This document shows, one piece after another, positions 9,751 through 18,240 of a DNA stretch of 64,000 nt. The stretch's first letter is position 1; the number at the start of each line of letters is the position of its first letter. This DNA comes from an uncultured Lachnospiraceae bacterium (lineage in GTDB: Bacteria; Bacillota; Clostridia; Lachnospirales; Lachnospiraceae), in NCBI GenBank assembly GCA_947382625.1, contig CANDAG010000002.1:99961-163960 (forward strand), given 5' to 3'. The notes beneath the pieces are model-generated. The model saw nothing but the letters and a program-made list of their open reading frames with translations, searched no databases and had not been told where the DNA came from. Made by a program: the position numbers and the translations under genes.

Positions 9751-9822
9751 TGGGCTATCGCCAAACGGTAAGGCAACGGACTCTGACTCCGTCATTTCAA
9801 GGTTCGAATCCTTGTAGCCCAG
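9751..9822 (+). tRNA. tRNA-Gln (anticodon CTG)
   Basis: The full cloverleaf can be folded by eye: acceptor TGGGCTA/TAGCCCA with discriminator G, D-arm GCC/GGC, anticodon stem ACGGA/TCCGT with loop CTCTGAC (anticodon CTG, reading CAG), a five-base variable loop, and T-arm CAAGG/CCTTG with loop TTCGAAT. No CCA is encoded. It is the intact left boundary of the accessory island: its 3' part is repeated at 17594-17683 and again, shorter, at 18180-18240. Confidence 0.95.
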
Positions 9823-9831
9823 CGAATGTGA

Positions 9832-9860
9832 CCCGGCAGATTTGATCTGCCGGGTTTTTT
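9832..9860 (+). terminator. tRNA-Gln intrinsic terminator
   Basis: CCCGGCAGA pairs with TCTGCCGGG around a five-base loop, followed by six T residues. The same terminator recurs almost unchanged after both downstream copies of the tRNA 3' end. Confidence 0.93.
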
Positions 9861-9937
9861 AACATAAGGACAGTTCGCGAAGCGTGCTGTCCGTTGTTAA
9901 CATAAGGATAACTCGCAGAGCGTGTTATCCGTTGTTT
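9861..9937 (+). repeat. Two tandem covarying hairpin repeats directly after the tRNA-Gln terminator
   Basis: Two 38-39 base units begin AACATAAGGA and end CCGTTGTT. Unit 1 folds as GGACAG..CGC-GAA-GCG..CTGTCC and unit 2 as GGATAAC.CGC-AGA-GCG.GTTATCC. The outer stems differ in sequence but remain complementary, so the pairing is preserved by compensatory change. They are longer-stemmed relatives of the dispersed 36-bp repeat family. Confidence 0.7.
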
Positions 9938-10727: not shown

Positions 10728-11472
10728 TGCTAGCTAACAGATAGAGACCAGAGAAACTATCAAAAAAATGAAAAAGAAGTGATTTGCGAATACCAGTCCT
10801 TCGCGGAAAGAATGGAATATTGCACTGTAGAGTCCCTGGCATGGAGGTTGCACCGGGAAGGACAGTGGTGAGTGTGAGTATATAATCAGGAATTTATAAC
10901 TAGAGAAAGACCGGGAATGCCATCGGAAGCGGTATAGGGAGCAGGTGTGGCCAATTGATGAAGATACATTTTTTGTCGGAGTAAGCGCCTGCAGAGGTAT
11001 ATTGAACAGTTGAAAACAAAAAGGCTAAAACAGTTTTCATATGGTGCATCTGGAGAGATTTCATGCAGAATGCATTGTGTGGGAACTGGAGAACTACAAG
11101 TTCTCTGGCTGATTTGGTAAAGATTCCATTCATTTTCAGGAGAAGGTAAAATATTACCTTCGGCACTGAGAAATGAATGGAATGAGTGCTAATTGATGTA
11201 GGTTAATGCAAAAATCAAACTAGCTTGGTGAATATTTTAGCCTTTGACCCAATTATGTAAACCAGCAGAATGTTTCGGGCATTTGCTAGTACTACCGGGA
11301 ATAGGCTTTGTACTACGCGCAGTGCTTCTTCCACATCTTGTGCATACCCATCTAATAACCTGTGCCATGAGAGCCCCCCTTTCTTATGTATATATAAAGA
11401 ATAGGTCAATTCAACCCTAAAGTCAAGGGAAACATCTAGAGAATGGCAAAGCAACAACACTAGTTTGTCGTT
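10728..11472. pseudogene. Gene-poor stretch with decayed coding fragments
   Basis: No intact gene is seen. Short plus-strand frames read like protein debris: about 10780-10869 contains EYQSFAERMEYC and ESLAWRLHREGQW, and about 11043-11112 contains LERFHAECIVWELENYKFSG, interrupted by stops and frame changes. I do not recognise the parent gene(s). A reverse-strand open frame at 11460-11215 lacks a ribosome site and is not called. Confidence 0.35.
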
Positions 11473-11697
11473 CTATTTTATACTGCTACGTGGGTAGGGA
11501 GTTTCGATATCTGTCAATCCAGCCAGATAATCCATACTCGTATTTAAAGCGATGGCAATTCTTTTGCATTGCTCAAAGGTGTAATACCTTTTACCGTTTT
11601 CAATTTTTGAGTAATCACTTTGGTCAATTCCTGTTAAGAGTTGCATTTTTACTTGAGTATACCCTTTACTCTTTCGTAGTTCTTTTAGTCTCGACAT
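11473..11697 (-). CDS. Xre/HTH_3 family transcriptional regulator
   Basis: A 74-aa protein that is almost entirely one Cro/CI helix-turn-helix: MSRLKELRKSKGYTQVKMQ, then TGIDQSDYSKIENGKRYYT and CKRIAIALNTSMDYLAGLTD. The reverse-strand ATG at 11697 has GGAGG seven bases upstream. It faces away from the zinc-ribbon ORF and AAA+ operon; inverted TAGGTCAAT motifs at 11738 and 11763 lie in the intervening region, where a repressor of the element could bind. That link is inference from position. Confidence 0.88.
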   Translation of the reverse strand: MSRLKELRKSKGYTQVKMQLLTGIDQSDYSKIENGKRYYTFEQCKRIAIALNTSMDYLAGLTDIETPYPRSSIK

Positions 11698-11737
11698 ATA
11701 TTTCCTCCATATAATAATATTTTCTTAAATATGGCAT

Positions 11738-11771
11738 ATTGACCTATTGACAGTAGGGGGTTATTGACCTA
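11738..11771 (-). repeat. Inverted-orientation TAGGTCAAT motifs between xre and the AAA+ operon
   Basis: ATTGACCTA occurs at 11738-11746 and 11763-11771, the reverse complement of the nonamer found in pairs at both element ends. They fall in the divergent promoter region, so they could also be operators for the Xre protein. Confidence 0.5.
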
Positions 11772-11803
11772 AAATTATGAAAAAGAAAAGGGAGATTTAT
11801 CCT

Positions 11804-11944
11804 ATGCAAATAGAATATATGTGTAGATTTTGCGGAAAGAAAGAAATCAGAAGTACCAACTCAGGAAGGCCGCTTCCCGGGACTTGTTCGAGGAGAGGAA
11901 AAAATATGCCGCATAGTTGGGGGGTGAATAGACGGTTAAAATAG
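11804..11944 (+). CDS. Small zinc-ribbon-like protein (46 aa)
   Basis: ATG 11804 is preceded by AGGGAGA at good spacing. The 46-aa product begins MQIEYMCRFCGKKEIR and has a later Cys in PGTCSRRGKN, giving a CxxC...C pattern that suggests a partial metal-binding knuckle. It sits 40 bases upstream of the AAA+ gene and probably belongs to that transcript. No function is known to me. Confidence 0.55.
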   Translation: MQIEYMCRFCGKKEIRSTNSGRPLPGTCSRRGKNMPHSWGVNRRLK

Positions 11945-11984
11945 GATGGTTAAGCTGTAGAATTAAAGAAATCGGAGTAGAGAG

Positions 11985-12977
11985 ATGCCATTAGGTAAAC
12001 GTATAAATTTGTCGGTAAAAGAAGCCGCATCACAAAGAGATAAAGATATACTTACTCATACTTCACCTGATTCAGTTAAAGTAGGAAATAATGATGGGAA
12101 TACTGTATTTACCTTATTTCAAAGTGCGGAGCCTCAATGTAGTTTTAATGATATTATATTAAATAGCGATACATATGATGCTATACAGGATGTACTTACA
12201 TTATATGAGAAACGAGAATTGATCTTCGATAAATGGGGATTAAAAAACACTCATAAAAACCAAAACCGTGCAGGAATCAATCTTTATGGGCCTTCAGGAA
12301 CAGGAAAAAGCGTAACAGCTCATGCTATTGCTGCTCAAGTCGGAAGAAAGATCCTAACAGTTGATTATTCCCAAATAGAATCGAAGTATGTAGGTGAAAC
12401 ATCAAAAAATCTTGCAACTTTGTTTGAGTATGCCAAAGAATCAAAGTCAATTATATTTTTTGACGAAGCGGATGCATTGCTTAGTAGGCGGGTAAATAAT
12501 ATGTCAAATTCTACAGATGTAAGCGTAAACCAAACACGTTCGGTTTTGCTTATGTTGATAAATGAATTTGATGATTTAATATTGTTTGCCTCTAACTTTA
12601 TTACAAATTATGACCCGGCATTTATGCGAAGAATACTGGCTCATATTAAATTTGAATTGCCAGATGAAATAAGCCGTTTTAAGTTATGGCGGATGTATAT
12701 TCCAGAAACGATGCCAACGAATGTGGATATCAGGGCATTAGCTGCAAAATATAATGGGGTATCGGGAGCAGACATTTCAAATGCCGTACTGAATGCTTCA
12801 TTAAGAGCGGCAAGATTGGAACAAGCAACTGTAAGACATACTTATTTTGAAGAGGCAATAGAAATGATCATTCATAGCAAAGATGATAATGATGAATTGG
12901 GGACATTTGCCTCAAGACGTACTGTAAGTGAAGATTATGTGAAGACTCAATTTAAAGGAGAATTAACAAAAAGATGA
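11985..12977 (+). CDS. AAA+ family ATPase (first gene of unknown island operon)
   Basis: A 330-aa classic AAA protein with a single ATPase module. Walker A GPSGTGKS is at residues 104-111, Walker B IIFFDEAD at about 156-163, and a sensor-1-like LFASN precedes NYDPAFMRRI, which carries the arginine finger of the second region of homology. GVSGADISNAVLNASLRAAR is the C-terminal helical (sensor 2) region. About 95 N-terminal residues have no recognised domain and may bind substrate. No protease domain is present, so it is likely a remodelling ATPase. Ribosome site GGAG precedes ATG 11985. It overlaps the next gene by four bases, implying translational coupling with three small or membrane proteins. 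Confidence 0.9.
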   Translation: MPLGKRINLSVKEAASQRDKDILTHTSPDSVKVGNNDGNTVFTLFQSAEPQCSFNDIILNSDTYDAIQDVLTLYEKRELIFDKWGLKNTHKNQNRAGINLYGPSGTGKSVTAHAIAAQVGRKILTVDYSQIESKYVGETSKNLATLFEYAKESKSIIFFDEADALLSRRVNNMSNSTDVSVNQTRSVLLMLINEFDDLILFASNFITNYDPAFMRRILAHIKFELPDEISRFKLWRMYIPETMPTNVDIRALAAKYNGVSGADISNAVLNASLRAARLEQATVRHTYFEEAIEMIIHSKDDNDELGTFASRRTVSEDYVKTQFKGELTKR

Positions 12978-13327
12978 TTGCAATTACTATTATATTAGCA
13001 TTAACAACAACTGTGATCGCAGGGCTGTTTAAGTTCTGGCAAACTATTATAGGATGGATTAAAAAGGTCGTAAATAAGATAAAGGAAGTATTAGGACTGA
13101 CGCCGGATGGAACCAGAACTTTTATTACCAGAACTGCTGATGGGCTCAAAAACAAATCAAAATATTATTATAAAAGCAAGGTAACCAGTGAGTGGGAAGA
13201 GATTGTATATACGAAAGCTGTTGATGAAAGTGAAGTGCCACCGGAGATATTAGCAAAGGTATATAAGCAAACAGTCGATGTGGAAGTGTCAACTACTGAG
13301 GAATTGAAACTGGCTATCAATGCATAG
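12974..13327 (+). CDS. Hypothetical single-pass membrane protein of the AAA+ operon
   Basis: A 117-aa protein whose start overlaps the ATPase stop (ATGA). One hydrophobic segment spans residues 2-22 (IAITIILALTTTVIAGLFKF), followed by an amphipathic basic stretch (IGWIKKVVNKIKEVL) and a soluble domain containing GTRTFITRTADGLKNKSKYY and EWEEIVYTKAVDESEVP. No known family is recognised. The tight coupling suggests that it anchors or regulates the ATPase at the membrane; this is inferred from position only. Confidence 0.75.
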   Translation: MIAITIILALTTTVIAGLFKFWQTIIGWIKKVVNKIKEVLGLTPDGTRTFITRTADGLKNKSKYYYKSKVTSEWEEIVYTKAVDESEVPPEILAKVYKQTVDVEVSTTEELKLAINA

Positions 13328-13338
13328 GAGGAGATGGC

Positions 13339-13761
13339 ATGTCGTTAGTAACAGGAGCATTAACTCATGTCGCAATGGAGGCACTGACTATCGTAATAGG
13401 ACCCTTAGTGGAAGATGCTAGGGATGCATTATCAGATGCCGCGCAAGATGCAATCAGAAGTAAAGTTGCGGGAAAAATGTCTATTGAAGAATGGGCGAAT
13501 ATTGTTTCACAAGGTGCTGATATGGTAAAAGAAAGAGTTATAAATGAAAGTAACCTTCAATTCGTTGGGGGAAAATTGAAATTGGCAGTAGTTGAAAAAA
13601 ATTTGAAAAAAGTTACTGTTTCTTTTCAGCTCTATTTTATAGATGAATTGGAGAAGTGGCAAATAGCTACGGCGGAAACGGATATACCAATTTCCAAATT
13701 TACAGATGATGCATTAAATGAATTGAGGACTAGTGGCGAAATACTGTTTGAAGTGGAGTGA
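13339..13761 (+). CDS. Hypothetical protein of the AAA+ operon
   Basis: A 140-aa protein with GGAGG immediately upstream of ATG 13339. The N-terminal half is helical with small residues (AMEALTIVIGPLVEDARDAL, then AAQDAIRSKVAGKM). The C-terminal half looks like a beta-rich domain (LKLAVVEKNLKKVTVSFQLY, then EKWQIATAETDIPISKF). It may be a substrate, adaptor or effector for the AAA+ protein. I do not recognise the family. Confidence 0.7.
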   Translation: MSLVTGALTHVAMEALTIVIGPLVEDARDALSDAAQDAIRSKVAGKMSIEEWANIVSQGADMVKERVINESNLQFVGGKLKLAVVEKNLKKVTVSFQLYFIDELEKWQIATAETDIPISKFTDDALNELRTSGEILFEVE

Positions 13762-14723
13762 TGGGTTTGCATTATATATTTATAATTATATTTATGGCTG
13801 TAAAGCTTTTACTATTTGATCCAAAAGTAAATTCTATCATATGGCTGATTCTTTTTGTTGTGAGGTTGGCGGTAGGAGATGTTTTTGCTATTATTGGGAT
13901 TATTGATTGTATCAAGGATATTTATATTGGGAAAGATTATTACGAAAACTCAAAAATAAAAGTTGATAAGCTTTATGTAGTAAAGAGTCTTACATCTCTA
14001 TTTACATGGGGTTATGCACGAATAATCTTTCTTCTTATAGTCGGGCCGATACTGAAGCATTCCGCATCGACTGAGATTAAAAAGAAAATGCAGCTCGACT
14101 ATCCGTTGCCTGATGCCTCATGTTTCAGCAATTTACAGGCAAAAAATTATTATTATAAGAAGCAAATTGACAAGCTGGAAAATAAAGGGGTGATCATATC
14201 TAACAAAAAAACTGTTGATAGTGAGGCTGAAATGCGCCGGAAGAAATTGGAAAATCTTTATCCTGAGAAGATAGTCAACAAAATTATTGAGATAATTGCA
14301 GGAGATAAGGAATTAAAGGATAAACGTAAAAATGCGGAAAGAAAGCTTGATAAGTTGTCATTAAGAAATTGCTATGCATATATAAAAAAGGATGTATTTG
14401 AACAATATCCAATAGCAATTACGGAAGCGATGGCTGACAAAGGACGATATTCTGTATCTGCAATTAAAAAATTTAAAGAACTGAAAACATTTCACCTTAT
14501 GTATCCTGTTACTAGTGCAGATGAACATGGGGATGCAGAATGGAGTGAGTATTTTATCATACAGGCTTTACAGCCGCTTGTGGACGAAGGCATTTTTGAT
14601 GATGATGACTTCAATGATCGGGATGCAATGGACAATCATGCTTATCGCTATGCAATGAGCCCAGTGGCGATGCCGAGTATAGATGTCAGCAGTGACCCAC
14701 GTTTTGCATTAGATGATGATTAA
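13761..14723 (+). CDS. Hypothetical multi-pass membrane protein of the AAA+ operon
   Basis: A 320-aa protein whose ATG overlaps the preceding stop (TGATG). Hydrophobic segments occupy about residues 4-18, 26-50 and 87-100, followed by a long charged cytoplasmic-looking part with LENLYPEKIVNKIIEIIAGD and a very acidic C-terminus (DDDDFNDRDAMDNHAYRY, ending DDD). It is the last gene of the four-gene unit. No family is recognised. An acidic tail plus membrane anchor could serve as a docking site for the AAA+ ring, but nothing in the sequence proves it. Confidence 0.75.
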   Translation: MGLHYIFIIIFMAVKLLLFDPKVNSIIWLILFVVRLAVGDVFAIIGIIDCIKDIYIGKDYYENSKIKVDKLYVVKSLTSLFTWGYARIIFLLIVGPILKHSASTEIKKKMQLDYPLPDASCFSNLQAKNYYYKKQIDKLENKGVIISNKKTVDSEAEMRRKKLENLYPEKIVNKIIEIIAGDKELKDKRKNAERKLDKLSLRNCYAYIKKDVFEQYPIAITEAMADKGRYSVSAIKKFKELKTFHLMYPVTSADEHGDAEWSEYFIIQALQPLVDEGIFDDDDFNDRDAMDNHAYRYAMSPVAMPSIDVSSDPRFALDDD

Positions 14724-14798
14724 GTATAAATTAAAGGGTATGAGTAATATTTTATCAGTTCTAAATTTAAAGGGTTCTATGGTAGTTCACTTTTTATC

Positions 14799-14833
14799 AA
14801 ATAACTGGCTCGCGAAGTGTGATAATGTTTGAT
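14799..14833 (+). repeat. Dispersed ~36-bp hairpin repeat, copy in the island
   Basis: AAATAACTG, 20 bases with a CGC-GAA-GTG core, then TTTGAT. The rest of the 14724-15002 gap is AT-rich without a gene, apart from the terminator at 14949-14981. Confidence 0.55.
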
Positions 14834-14948
14834 TTTAAAAGCGGTTTAGGAAAAAGGTGAGAAATGAGGCCATGGATATCCTGCTAGGTTAACAGTGTGA
14901 TTGTAAAGTCAAATAAATGAAATCATATATCATAAAAGTGAAGTAAGG

Positions 14949-14981
14949 GAGAGCCTTTAAAAGGGCTCTCTTTTCTTTTTT
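14949..14981 (+). terminator. Intrinsic terminator downstream of the AAA+ operon
   Basis: GAGAGCC and GGCTCTC form a 7-bp stem that can extend through the A/T loop, followed by TTTTCTTTTTT. Confidence 0.85.
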
Positions 14982-15002
14982 AGCAGAACAGCCTTCAAGT
15001 AG

Positions 15003-15524
15003 GCAAGTTTTAATGTTTGGAAAGCAAATGAAAATGATAAGAATTACATAATGGTTGAAGGGACGACCAAAAACGAAAAGGCACGGACAATCAAACTTAC
15101 AGAAAAAGCGCTGGAGATATTACGGCAGATAAAAACAATTTACGGAACAAATGATGGTGTAGAGGAGAAGATAGTAAAAACACGCACAGGAAAGCCGAAT
15201 ACAGCAACTAATTTGGAACATAGAATGGCGACAATCTTTAAGAATGCAGGATTGGCTGAACTGAATGGCGGGTTACATATATTTCGCAGAACCTTTGCCA
15301 CCAGAATGTATGAGAATAAAGCCAGAGTAAAGGAGATAGCGGCATACATAGGGGATTTGGAGTCTACTACGGAGCAGTACTATATTGCCGTGCGTAAAAA
15401 AATTATAGAAGACGGTGAGGAAAAACAGGTAGTTATGGTTCCGGCACCGGCGCACCAGAGAAATGAAAGTAAGTGGATGGATGATGAGCCGTATAGAATG
15501 CACAGGGGGAGAACATATGTGTGA
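15003..15524 (+). pseudogene. Tyrosine recombinase/integrase, N-terminus missing
   Basis: The reading frame opens directly after a stop at 15000-15002 and gives about 173 residues (first possible ATG at 15051). Visible integrase parts are the beta-strand region with the conserved Lys (TTKNEKARTIKLT), box II LHIFRRTFATRM (HxxR), and the C-terminal YIGDLESTTEQYYIAV, which contains the nucleophilic Tyr. The SAM-like DNA-binding domain and the first catalytic Arg are missing, so it should be inactive. Its presence inside the tRNA-Gln element supports integration by a phage-type integrase, followed by decay. Confidence 0.8.
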
Positions 15525-15579
15525 ATTGTTATGTGCCATCAGTTTAGTAAGAGAGATAGATAATGTTGTCGGTACTTGA

Positions 15580-15608
15580 TTGTATTTAACAGAGAAGCTG
15601 TGTATAAT
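15580..15608 (+). promoter_or_regulatory. Promoter of the Rpn-type nuclease gene
   Basis: TTGTAT, a 17-base spacer, then TATAAT. The spacer ends AAGCTGTG, shared with the promoter at 21143-21171; the gene begins 22 bases after the -10 box. Confidence 0.65.
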
Positions 15609-15629
15609 AATGATAAAAGGAGCAGAAGC

Positions 15630-16541
15630 ATGAAAATAGTCAATACACCGTATGATGATGTGTTCCGGACGTTATTGAATGACTGTAGTAGTCTGATTAT
15701 ACCTGTTATAAATGAAGTGTTTGGTGAGAACTATACAGGGGACGAGCAGATTGTATTTTCACCGAATGAGCATTTCCTAAACAGGCAGGGTGGGGATGAA
15801 GAAGAACGAATTACGGATACAAATTTTAAGATATTGGGAACAGAAACAAAAAAATATCACTGGGAATGCCAGAGCAGTACCGACAGCAGTATGCTGGTCA
15901 GGTTTTTTGAGTACGATACTCAGATTGCGCTTGATGAAGGCGAGCTAAAAGGGAATGTCCTTACAGTGATCCTTCCGCATTCGGCGGCTTTGTTTTTGCG
16001 TTGTGATATGTCTACACCGGACAATATGGAAATAGAAATTGTGACACCGGGGGGAAGTGTTGGCTATAATATCCCGGTAATGAAGTCGCAGACTTATACA
16101 ATAGATGAGATTTTTGAAAAAGAGCTTTTATTCTTGGTTCCCTTTTATATCTTTTCACATGAGAGCCGCTTTGAAGAATATAATAAAGATGAAGATAAGT
16201 TAAACAACTTGAAAAAGGAATATGCGGATATTGTATATCGGCTTGAAAGACTGATGGAAACAGGAAAGATTAGTGAGTACACAAAGTGTACAATTGTTGA
16301 TATGTCGAATAAGGTGTTGGAACACATTGCAGGGAAATATGAGAACGTTAGGGAAGGAGTGAAATCAGTCATGGGCGGAAAGGTTCTTGATTATGAGGCA
16401 AAGAAGATAAAGAATGAAGGGAAACTGGAAATGCTTTTTGACCTTGTGCGTAATAACATTATATCATTGAAAGAGGCTGCAACTCAGGCAAAATTAACGG
16501 AAGAAGCATTTCAGGAAAAAATGCAGAGTTATAATGGATAA
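15630..16541 (+). CDS. Rpn family (PD-(D/E)XK) nuclease / transposase-like protein
   Basis: A 303-aa protein of the large Rpn/PDDEXK family common in Lachnospiraceae. The N-terminus MKIVNTPYDDVFRTLLND and the core FKILGTETKKYHWECQSSTD (E..Q near residues 75-85) fit the degenerate nuclease active site. The C-terminal helices KEAATQAKLTEEAFQEKM match the tail often found in these proteins. E. coli RpnA promotes RecA-independent recombination; others act in phage defence. The ATG at 15630 has AAAGGAG upstream; an earlier open frame (15576) overlaps the promoter and is unlikely. It is in a probable cargo position between the integrase remnant and the MNT/HEPN genes. Confidence 0.8.
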   Translation: MKIVNTPYDDVFRTLLNDCSSLIIPVINEVFGENYTGDEQIVFSPNEHFLNRQGGDEEERITDTNFKILGTETKKYHWECQSSTDSSMLVRFFEYDTQIALDEGELKGNVLTVILPHSAALFLRCDMSTPDNMEIEIVTPGGSVGYNIPVMKSQTYTIDEIFEKELLFLVPFYIFSHESRFEEYNKDEDKLNNLKKEYADIVYRLERLMETGKISEYTKCTIVDMSNKVLEHIAGKYENVREGVKSVMGGKVLDYEAKKIKNEGKLEMLFDLVRNNIISLKEAATQAKLTEEAFQEKMQSYNG

Positions 16542-16585
16542 GTGTTGGCGCTGTTAATGTGATTATATGGATGGAGGAATGAGGG

Positions 16586-16777
16586 ATGAGTGTGGCTGAA
16601 TTAGCAGTGAAACTGGAAGCTTTATCACAGGAAGATTACAATATGGTTGTAATGTTGGTTGAACGGTTATCTGATAAGCCTTCAAATATTTTAAAAAAGG
16701 CCAGAGAGAAATATGTGAAGCAAAATCCTATGTCAATGGAAGAAATTGACGAGAAAATAAAAAAATTACAGGTATAA
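16586..16777 (+). CDS. Small antitoxin-like or hypothetical protein (63 aa)
   Basis: ATG 16586 follows GGAGGAATGAGGG. The product begins MSVAELAVKLEALSQEDYN and ends with MSMEEIDEKIKKLQV, a helical, charged protein like those that precede toxin genes in Clostridia. No toxin of the RelE type follows; instead the MNT gene starts 16 bases downstream. It may be a leftover of another toxin-antitoxin module or a third component of the MNT/HEPN unit. Confidence 0.6.
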   Translation: MSVAELAVKLEALSQEDYNMVVMLVERLSDKPSNILKKAREKYVKQNPMSMEEIDEKIKKLQV

Positions 16778-16792
16778 AAAAGGGTGCTCGGT

Positions 16793-17125
16793 ATGGAAGA
16801 AAAAAAGAGAGTTCTTTATCTGTTTATTGGTGAAGTACAGAAAAGACTTGGAAGTTTAATAAGCAAAATCATATTGTATGGATCATATGCCAGGTTGGAT
16901 TACAGGGAAGATTCAGATATCGATATTATGATATTGACATCCTTGCCGGATAGTGAAATAAAGGAAATTGAAAATGAGGTATATGACATAGCCTATGATT
17001 ATGGCTTGGAGTATAATGTTTCAATAAGTATTAATATAAAGAATGAGGATCATTTTAACTACTGGTTAGGGGCATTGCCATATTATGACAATATTAAAAG
17101 GGAGGGCATTATCCTTGCAGGATGA
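16793..17125 (+). CDS. MNT-type minimal nucleotidyltransferase (antitoxin of MNT/HEPN pair)
   Basis: A 110-aa protein with the polymerase-beta NT signature: IILYGSYARLDYREDSDIDIM, where GS and DxD form the catalytic site, at about residues 26-45. MNT proteins paired with HEPN toxins adenylylate or AMPylate the toxin and neutralise it (HepT/MntA). ATG 16793 has AGGGTG upstream. Its end overlaps the HEPN gene by 11 bases, consistent with a toxin-antitoxin operon. Confidence 0.88.
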   Translation: MEEKKRVLYLFIGEVQKRLGSLISKIILYGSYARLDYREDSDIDIMILTSLPDSEIKEIENEVYDIAYDYGLEYNVSISINIKNEDHFNYWLGALPYYDNIKREGIILAG

Positions 17126-17519
17126 AAGAAAAATAGATTTATGCAGGTATCGGCTGGGAAATTCGGCGGATAGCCTTAAGGTTGCTCAGGACTGTCTGGA
17201 AAAAGAGTATTATAAAGATGCTATTAACCGCTCCTATTATGCTGTATTTTATGCCATTAAATCTGTTCTGGCATTAGAAGGGAAAGACTTTAAAAGGCAT
17301 AAGGATGTGATTGCCTATTTCAACCAAACTTATGTTGCATCAGGCGTCATCTCCAAGGAAGTTGGAAGAAAGATAGGGAGGTTGCAGCAGAAGAGGGAAA
17401 AAAGCGACTATGATGACTTCTATCTTGCCTCAAAAGAAGAAACATTGGAACAGATAGTAAATGCAAGTGAGATTATTGAGGTCATTAAGGAATACTTAAA
17501 GAGAGACAGATTATTGTGA
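17115..17519 (+). CDS. HEPN domain protein (putative toxin of MNT/HEPN pair)
   Basis: A 134-aa helical protein. The best start is TTG 17115, with GGAGGG eight bases upstream; the frame is open to ATG 17085. HEPN features include AINRSYYAVFYAIKSVLALEG and KREKSDYDDFYLAS. This is the HEPN subgroup with an R..SDY motif in place of the canonical Rx4-6H RNase motif, so RNase activity is uncertain. Partner of the overlapping MNT. It is the last gene before the right-end repeats of the element. Confidence 0.85.
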   Translation: MQDERKIDLCRYRLGNSADSLKVAQDCLEKEYYKDAINRSYYAVFYAIKSVLALEGKDFKRHKDVIAYFNQTYVASGVISKEVGRKIGRLQQKREKSDYDDFYLASKEETLEQIVNASEIIEVIKEYLKRDRLL

Positions 17520-17593: not shown

Positions 17594-17683
17594 GCAACGG
17601 ACTTAAGACTCCGTCATTTCAAGGTTCGAATCCTTGTAGCCCAGCGAATGTGACCCGGTAGATTTGATCTGCCGGGTTTTTTA
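17594..17683 (+). repeat. att copy: 3' half of tRNA-Gln plus its terminator
   Basis: Starting GCAACGGACT, this segment reproduces the tRNA-Gln gene from the anticodon stem to the end, then the spacer and terminator, with one base change in the terminator stem. The only other difference is the anticodon, CTG replaced by TAAG, giving an eight-base loop. No 5' half precedes it, so it is not a functional tRNA. It marks the right boundary of the integrated element. Confidence 0.85.
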
Positions 17684-17733: not shown

Positions 17734-17804
17734 AGTTTAAAAGAAAGAAGCAAAGTCAGATATAAGGGAAAGAGCTCAAATCGAAGGTTGTGGAGTGGAA
17801 AAGA

Positions 17805-18158
17805 ATGGGAAATTTAGCTTTAAATCCTGAAACGATCGGACATGTTAAAGTGGAAGTGACCGAAATGGCAAAAAAGCTTATAGGTGCTGATTTGGTAGAA
17901 GTGATTCTGTATGGATCTTGTGCGAGAGGGGATTATACGGAGGATTCAGATATAGATATTGCTCTTCTTATGAAATGTGGCCGCATAGAGGCAAAGAAGT
18001 ATGATGACGTGTTGGCAGGAATATCAACTGAACTGGCAATGAAGTATTTTGCTATCGTTAATTTTGTCAGTTTACCATACAGCGAATTTGTTGAAAAAAA
18101 ACCGTGGTATGAATATTTTAGAAATATAGACAGGGAAGGGGAGGTGTTGTATGGATAG
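17805..18158 (+). CDS. MNT-type minimal nucleotidyltransferase, second copy
   Basis: A 117-aa protein with VEVILYGSCARGDYTEDSDI, then DIALL, the GS...DxD nucleotidyltransferase signature of MNT antitoxins. ATG 17805 has GGAG nine bases upstream; the GTG at 17790 is less likely. It is clearly divergent from the 16793 gene. Its stop overlaps the ATG of a HEPN-like gene that is cut after ten codons (18151-18240), so this antitoxin has lost its partner. Confidence 0.85.
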   Translation: MGNLALNPETIGHVKVEVTEMAKKLIGADLVEVILYGSCARGDYTEDSDIDIALLMKCGRIEAKKYDDVLAGISTELAMKYFAIVNFVSLPYSEFVEKKPWYEYFRNIDREGEVLYG

Positions 18159-18240
18159 AGTATATTATTTAGAGCTTGCTTCGAATCCTTGCAACCCAGC
18201 GAAAAACGACCCGGTAGAGATAATCTGCCGGGTTTTTTGA
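18151..18240 (+). pseudogene. HEPN gene truncated at a tRNA-derived att copy
   Basis: ATG 18151 overlaps the MNT stop, as in intact MNT/HEPN operons, and encodes MDRVYYLELA, like the start of HEPN partners. At base 18180 the sequence switches to the 3' end of a tRNA plus terminator, and the frame runs through it to a stop at 18238-18240 (29 codons). The HEPN body is lost. The junction falls exactly at the repeat boundary, pointing to a recombination-driven deletion. Confidence 0.7.
18180..18240 (+). repeat. Third copy of tRNA 3' end plus terminator (att remnant)
   Basis: TTCGAATCCTTG, then a diverged acceptor end (CAACCCAGC), and a terminator with the same nine-base stem motif and T-run. It is shorter and less similar than the 17594 copy, with several changes in the spacer. 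It is the outer right boundary of the island. Confidence 0.8.

Follow-up and report, generated by a model that had tools for sequence, protein, structure and literature searches.

What does a classical AAA ATPase do when its gene is tied, by overlapping or closely spaced reading frames, to three genes of no recognizable family? The question is raised by a 64,000-nucleotide stretch of DNA (the window) from an uncultured Lachnospiraceae bacterium (assembly GCA_947382625.1, contig CANDAG010000002.1, positions 99,961 to 163,960), in which an initial annotation, made from the sequence alone, had marked a four-gene operon, here called A-B-C-D, within a tRNA island. Here, we report that A (the ATPase), B and C are tied together in several phyla by co-occurrence, gene order and shared peptide motifs, and that the fourth place is taken by different proteins at different loci. 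As the best explanation we lean towards a membrane-docked, p97/Cdc48-like ring that would remodel a membrane complex.

The four open reading frames (ORFs) lie where they had first been placed (Table 1). The start of B overlaps the end of A by 4 nt, 11 nt separate the stop of B from the start of C, and the mechanical reading frame of D begins with a GTG at 13758, while the ATG at 13761 overlaps the C stop. A matches Pfam AAA (3.5e-26) and AAA_lid_3 (1.1e-6) and carries Walker A (GPSGTGKS), Walker B (FFDEAD) and a second region of homology (SRH; NYDPAFMRRI), i.e., all the features that define the AAA class (Walker A/B, sensor, SRH arginine). In an alignment of the window protein with five relatives, the Walker A G/K, the Walker B D/E, the sensor N and one SRH arginine are invariant, in agreement with the initial call of a full AAA ATPase. 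The nearest solved chains are those of p97/Cdc48, the SKYVGE segment is one that we take to be pore-loop-like (p97/Cdc48-type KYVGE), and the C-terminal tail reads VSEDYVKTQ. B has a single hydrophobic segment (residues 1–19), C has at most a borderline hydrophobic N-terminus, and D has hydrophobic segments within its first ~100 residues followed by a soluble part ending in DPRFALDDD, a pattern that agrees with the earlier description of B as single-pass and of D as multi-pass with an acidic tail.

Gene neighborhoods were read at 51 of 80 genome loci, 17 of 25 viral loci and in seven annotated records. The order A-B-C-D is kept in a genome of the same genus (L162; L and G numbers are our handles for loci and genomes) and in two other genome loci, L046 and L047. 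Among these three and the window, identities are 64–76% for A and B, 33–63% for C and 31–52% for D; the ratio of nonsynonymous to synonymous divergence (dN/dS) is 0.07–0.16 for A and B where dS is unsaturated, and dN/dS or its polymorphism counterpart pN/pS is higher for C and D. Because the order is kept in these loci and dN/dS is low in A and B, the A-B-C-D arrangement is beyond chance. With the ATPase as query, the A-B-C order was also found on plasmids from Moraxella osloensis and Comamonas (the 10-kb pZM22-1), one of the two typed mobilizable and the other being the 10-kb one, and in Oscillospiraceae, Lachnospiraceae, Selenomonadaceae, Intestinimonas, Ruminococcus callidus (L061) and Synergistaceae as well as on two near-identical viral contigs, L126 and L127; A stands alone at the extreme end of a Moraxella phage record. 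B and C profiles built from these loci found further copies next to A. Please note that this locus set was found through A and is therefore not independent evidence of linkage.

Linkage was also counted, in a test independent of that set, across 189 genomes from the family of L049's genome (Selenomonadaceae-type; cut-offs 1e-80 for A, 1e-3 for B and 1e-6 for C). A occurs in 70 of them, B in 74 and C in 69; A and B are both present in 68, A without B in two, B without A in six, and neither in 113 (Fisher test 1.6e-41, uncorrected for kinship), and all 69 genomes with C also have B. Four of the B genomes rest on matches weaker than 1e-10, without which the counts become 66 with both, four with A and four with B alone. 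The initial annotation had pointed to an ATPase found mostly without its partners as evidence against its reading; what we found is that two of the 70 A genomes lack B (four at 1e-10). When, likewise independently, two B proteins were searched by tblastn against 72,556 plasmid records, the two A-bearing plasmids were the only matches. The 32 B loci L195–L226 were collected once the profiles existed; 30 of them have C next to B and 21 have A there. Leaving out seven repeats judged by eye (L197, L198, L199, L202, L203, L204 and L206), C is adjacent in 24 of 25 and A in 14 of 25. An adjacent C is missing at L209, which lies where a contig ends, and at L199, which is the L059 locus.

In the ATPase tree, all 17 rows with B and C fall into one 25-row clade (support 96/98). 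Eighteen rows of this clade have B, one is cut by the record end, and six, all of them Selenomonad A genes, are nested in it without B in the stretch read. L127, L139, L140, L141, L086, L095, L096 and L134 were omitted from the tree by choice and L080 for its length. That an ordinary AAA ATPase simply lies beside unrelated small genes would fit these six nested rows and the fact that AAA genes of A's broad kind are nearly universal; the counts contradict it, however, both through co-occurrence at genome level and through B being found among plasmids only with A, and we regard such a chance neighborhood as barely conceivable. phrog_3757, tried as a tracer of the family, was too broad, matching 298 of 299 genomes and all 14 controls. 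Close relatives of A were not found in the window's own family, where none of 30 loci but the window's own reached 37% identity.

B is patchy and dispensable in the window's class and genus, since just one of 391 genomes sampled from the class, that of the window, encodes it at full length, as do two of 37 genomes of the genus. Weaker matches to the B profile account for two of the three matching class genomes and six of the eight matching genus genomes; they are open frames of 720–1080 aa that cover the N-terminal part of B only, and they were left uncounted, being read as probable tape-measure-like proteins on the strength of phrog_1272.

Related ATPases were also seen in other settings. L066, L067 and L083 (cyanobacterial, Chloroflexi and Planctomycetes) have two or three B-like proteins before A, several of them with an [LI]-P-x-x-[VI]-[RC] motif. 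In L080, L081, L084 and L128, related ATPases are preceded by small proteins with similar, hydrophobic C-terminal tails (LIILK, PIVVLN, KLVVLS and MIVLK); these may represent another version of this design, in which the handle sits at the extreme C-terminus. On a faecal phage-labelled contig (L045:5773-10930) a related ATPase is followed by a helical protein and by 715-aa and 231-aa proteins, which we take to be MotA/ZorA-like and OmpA-like, respectively, i.e., presumably a Zorya-like neighborhood; on a Streptomyces plasmid (L044:5409-12078) one stands directly before an annotated CHAT-domain gene, with an annotated SduA (Shedu)-type gene nearby.

B, C and D, which the initial annotation could not place in any family, have stayed without a placement: none of the three window proteins has an accepted match in Pfam, NCBIfam or PADLOC. 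Their matches in PHROG are weak, the best being phrog_1272 with B (3.7e-4), so that B weakly resembles phage tape-measure helices. Nineteen B and 15 C family members gave one marginal Pfam match for each family, and the B and C profiles found no confident match among PDB chains. Homology of the partners to a known non-defence system, which had been named as the other finding to look for, is likewise absent for B and C among accepted Pfam and PDB-sequence matches. An hhalign comparison (E 2.8e-4) and weak reciprocal profile matches across similar regions suggest that B and C may be distantly related to each other.

D behaves differently from the core. Its profile found no relative outside the window/L162/L046/L047 group in the loci known at that time, and a search of 299 genomes returned one match, the window's own. 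In its place, L049 and L050 have membrane proteins of a different kind, L126 has a Sel1-type protein, L237 has a protein of 641 aa, and L060, L061 and the plasmids have other transmembrane (TM) proteins. Among the seven plus four other D proteins scanned with Pfam, Sel1/TPR in L126 is the sole accepted match. By eye, and with topology inferred, the D proteins of L049, L050 and L237 share a C-terminal domain, which follows a TM segment and, before it, a short N-terminal part. It is well supported that D is an exchangeable fourth part, swapped between loci. Thus the initial claim of a four-part membrane ATPase machine stands for A, B and C, by co-occurrence and synteny, and for D only as an exchangeable part.

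The proteins share more than their neighborhood. B shares a motif of roughly R-x-[IV]-x-E-x-E-[VI]-P-x-x-I-x-x-K with some of the D proteins and with extra proteins. An 18-residue profile made from ten B tails was applied to 9,751 ORFs. The 27 ORFs with a score of 5.2 or more, the ten training sequences included, all lie within ~2 kb of A or are A itself. Shuffled sets give about four such matches each, with a best score of 12.8, so single weak matches prove nothing; and as the scores of the three non-B carriers named next fall within the range of the best shuffled scores, the argument is the position of the matches, not their score. The non-B carriers include a 170-aa amphipathic-looking protein in L062 (11.5), a Sel1-repeat-like protein in L049 (10.5) and the ATPase tail in L061 (7.7), and the motif is also present in short B-like ORFs of L053 and L056. 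Later loci added the N-terminus of the L200/L237 D protein (21.4 and 20.4, both from a single gene retrieved twice), with weaker matches in L205 (12.6) and L211 (8.4). VSE[DE]YVKxQ, found in many ATPase C-tails, is a possible variant of the shared motif; the pattern VSE[DE]Y[VA][KQ]xQ occurs in 27 of 11,990 ORFs, 25 of which are ATPase-sized and carry it C-terminally (some loci fetched twice), the remaining two being small operon proteins of L235 and L236. D proteins, finally, end in [x]LD(D) in seven of ten complete operons (five of seven D families by our own grouping), and also in L162, compared with three other ORFs in a set of 1,623 that are 150 aa or longer. We settled on this pattern once the tails had been seen, and the counts leave out L127, a near copy of L126.

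At three loci (L196, L235 and L236), two GTPase genes lie 3' of the A-B-C cluster; in L196 and L235 the stretch ends inside the second one. Of the five GTPases scanned, three exceed the 27-bit Dynamin_N cut-off (38.4, 36.6 and 27.7), the 859-aa GTPase of L196 starts with a C domain, and in L235 and L236 B and C are multiplied in tandem.

How might such parts work together? In the model that we favor, A would form a p97/Cdc48-like ATPase ring without an N-domain; B, through its TM helix and soluble tail, and together with the soluble C, would hold this ring at the cytoplasmic face of the membrane; and the shared short linear motif would serve as a docking handle that gathers the parts. Using ATP, the ring would pull on, take apart or reset a membrane-bound complex that contains D; D would be an exchangeable sensor or effector, and in some genomes the target complex would hold a dynamin-like GTPase pair instead. 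We infer ring assembly, docking, topology, direction of action and membrane remodelling from sequence.

Several observations weigh against this model. At L199 (= L059), B stands beside A without C, and 11 of the 25 new loci have a B-C pair with no adjacent A; A is encoded elsewhere in nine of these 11 genomes and was not found in G822 and G829. Related plasmid ATPases of Lactobacillus and Synechococcus, outside the clade, have no B recognized by the profile. The hhalign probability for B with C is just 41%. On the motif side, shuffled ORFs reach the score already given, several clade ATPases (e.g., L040 and L060) are without the tail variant, window D has no motif match and fits by its tail alone, and the LD-tail pattern is post hoc. 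The GTPase pairs are confined to three loci, two of which (L235 and L236) are close relatives, and no dynamin-type GTPase is present among the window proteins scanned.

We divide the possible purpose of the system between immunity and upkeep, because the context contains evidence for and against defence. In a defensive role, D would sense infection or damage at the membrane and A, via B and C, would free or activate a membrane effector, the outcome being abortive infection or a block of DNA entry; this we take as a serious possibility, one that stops short of being probable. The mobile locations fit it: the tRNA-Gln site in two species of the genus, the two plasmids, the viral contigs L126/L127 and A at the end of the Moraxella phage record, as does the fast divergence or replacement of D. 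WYL regulators lie upstream of A in L051, L126 and phage Mcat5, and WYL proteins are described as regulators of defence systems (PMC4012209, PMC9122588). A B-C pair in L195 lies upstream of type I restriction-modification-like genes, with the methyltransferase found by search and the putative S and R genes assigned by likeness; large N6-methyltransferase ORFs lie 0–3 nt from orphan A genes in L239–L241, loci which, however, were chosen because a methyltransferase was already listed nearby; and the window's own island encodes a HEPN protein and an MNT-like ORF. Against defence, PADLOC has no match for window B, C or D, and a comparison by eye of the N6-methyltransferase matches listed for 68 of the 74 B genomes with the B loci gave just one such locus with a match within 20 kb, although the assemblies are fragmented. 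Genes that we take to be pth-, proS- or thiD-like, i.e., housekeeping-like, lie beside orphan A in six of the eight loci read. Of the 65 consecutively listed genomes G771–G835, 60 have B and 58 have A; so frequent an occurrence of B argues for upkeep, and our guess is that A/B is core in a genus there. The defence-island scan (Pfam and PADLOC on 95 of 165 flanking ORFs, run without a control set) gave scattered matches, and B searches in phages together with A searches of viral contigs using three single proteins gave no system beyond L126/L127. The initially suggested anti-phage or inter-element role would thus be a possibility, for which the mobile locations and the WYL and methyltransferase neighbors speak and against which the 60/65 presence and the housekeeping-like surroundings count.

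Envelope maintenance is the other purpose to be considered, and we hold it tentatively, as possible. The system would then be a membrane repair or stress device, like the phage shock protein (PSP) system or dynamin, domesticated in Selenomonadaceae and spread elsewhere by mobile elements. The dynamin-type GTPase pairs, the fusion with a C domain, the putative D layout of L049, L050 and L237 (read by eye) and the presence of B in 74 of the 189 genomes speak for it, but B is dispensable in the window's class and genus, at the frequencies given above, and plasmids and viral contigs carry the system. That the operon serves its own carrier, through entry exclusion, plasmid stability or superinfection exclusion, would suit pZM22-1, where the operon makes up more than one-fifth of the 10 kb and stands beside toxin-antitoxin-type genes, but the chromosomal, housekeeping-like surroundings in Selenomonadaceae make this improbable; some further purpose is unlikely as well.

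The window operon lies in a tRNA island, as annotated initially; the island is at a tRNA-Gln gene and is bounded by a 77-bp direct repeat whose copies are 98.7% identical and enclose ~7.8 kb (Table 1). The island holds the operon, a truncated integrase and, 3' of the operon at 15576-17519, a 321-aa ORF and an MNT-like ORF followed by a HEPN protein; the 321-aa ORF has no accepted Pfam match and looks to us like an Rpn/PD-(D/E)XK-type protein. The G690 genome, from the same genus, has A-B-C-D ~4 kb downstream of a tRNA-Gln gene, among neighbors that differ from the window's and include RtcB and an RF-1-type protein; the stretch from tRNA-Gln to the operon (L162:3992-6606) also encodes an HNH-type protein besides RtcB and the RF-1-domain protein, which we take to be PrfH-like. 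Past the right repeat of the window's island, the tRNA-Gln 3' end recurs for a third time, as a partial copy (18180-18240); this copy and the MNT-like ORF (17790-18158) between it and the repeat are possibly a second, decayed tandem island. Approximately 45 bp after tRNA-Gln (9855-9900) recur widely in this and other genomes of the genus at roughly 83–100% identity, which suggests a dispersed intergenic element or a common terminator. Protein kinases are encoded shortly upstream of two Selenomonadaceae operons (L196:2519-4303 and L049:5049-6536).

Table 1. Operon, control sites and island features, in window positions.
Feature	Position	Strand	Basis
A: classical AAA ATPase, 330 aa	11985..12977	+	Pfam, alignment, tree
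B: one-TM protein, 117 aa, C-terminal motif TKAVDESEVPPEILAKV	12974..13327	+	profiles
C: soluble partner, 140 aa, possibly distant B relative	13339..13761	+	profiles
D: multi-TM protein, 320 aa, acidic tail FALDDD, exchangeable module	13761..14723	+	profiles
Zinc-ribbon-like ORF, 46 aa, optional fifth member	11804..11944	+	similar ORFs in L051, L053
HTH_3 regulator, 74 aa, divergent from operon	11473..11697	-	Pfam HTH_3 4.4e-13
Three TATTGAC[CA] repeats (11737, 11745, 11762), possible operator	11737..11769	.	read from sequence
Best promoter-like site, TTGACA-17-TAAAAT, 11/12	11747..11775	+	site scan
Terminator-like site, sole one in 11400-15100	14945..14974	+	site scan
tRNA-Gln (CTG), island integration site	9751..9823	+	ARAGORN
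77-bp direct repeat, left copy (tRNA 3' part and following bases)	9785..9861	+	blastn
77-bp direct repeat, right copy, island end	17607..17683	+	blastn
Phage-type integrase, N-terminally truncated	15051..15524	+	Pfam Phage_integrase 8e-12, positions 60-170 of 172

The best promoter-like site stands shortly 5' of the zinc-ribbon ORF and is overlapped by the TATTGAC[CA] repeats, a putative operator. Such promoter-like sites are weak as a class (21 found vs 15.1 expected from shuffles), and one terminator-like site was found in 11400-15100 vs 1.8 expected. Counterparts of the zinc-ribbon ORF, compared by eye, lie directly upstream of A in L051 (6737-6916) and, with another ORF in between, in L053 (6293-6445), which supports it as an occasional fifth member of the operon, as had been suggested.

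We found no description of the operon in the titles, abstracts and passages searched, supplements, most subscription papers and bioRxiv preprints lying outside that search. Judged within these library and literature searches, the gene system is new, with a predicted motor of a known kind: co-occurrence, order and motifs link two families, neither with an accepted match, to one motor in several phyla, which suggests that A-B-C is an undescribed membrane-remodelling machine. If this is true, bacteria have a modular machine of AAA ring and adaptors, in places with dynamin-like proteins, that moves between genomes, and docking partners and motif become predictable for a membrane process or an immune mechanism. 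It is doubtful, in our view, that we are looking at a membrane-remodelling kit that evolved apart from ESCRT (endosomal sorting complexes required for transport) and is used as a transferable membrane surveillance or immunity device. Such a kit, rather unlikely as a whole, would consist of one classical AAA ring, tandemly duplicated B/C adaptors with a shared handle, an exchangeable D and, in some lineages, a GTPase pair and a fused adaptor domain.

How does the system compare with known ones? IetA is the best match of A in both PADLOC (8.1e-38) and NCBIfam (2e-36). In IetAS, the IetA ATPase adjoins the subtilisin-type protease IetS, whereas A has B, C and D as partners and scores 125.9 bits against a 510-bit NCBIfam cut-off, and no such protease is present among the eight window proteins scanned with Pfam (the scan of the other loci's flanks is represented by the first 25 of 128 matching families). 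IetAS membership was rejected, A being far below the cut-off and the protease partner not being found beside the window operon. FtsH combines a TM anchor with a metalloprotease domain; A has neither a TM-like segment nor a protease match and was rejected as an FtsH. With p97/Cdc48, A shares the AAA domain, the nearest solved sequences and the pore-loop-like KYVGE, but it differs in being a 330-aa protein with a single AAA domain and no N-domain match, coupled to B and C; p97 proper, with its N-domain and two AAA rings, was rejected. In ESCRT, an AAA ring has small membrane-linked partners that carry short docking motifs. The resemblance of our system to ESCRT-III/Vps4 is of this working kind only, i.e., an AAA ring and small membrane-linked partners with short docking motifs, but A has no MIT match in Pfam, the 19 B and 15 C members have no Snf7 (ESCRT-III) match in Pfam, and Vps24 is met by the B profile in PDB as a weak match (E 0.49). 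PSP envelope-stress operons link AAA ATPase genes to membrane-proximal partners (PMC11237479), as is the case here too. Pfam finds no PspA/IM30 partner in the window operon or in the B and C members, and PSP membership was rejected for lack of a PspA-type match. Bacterial dynamin-like genes are reported to be mostly paired in operons (PMC6104087), and L196, L235 and L236 likewise have two GTPases per operon; what differs is the linkage of these pairs to A-B-C and, in L196, the C domain at the start of one GTPase.

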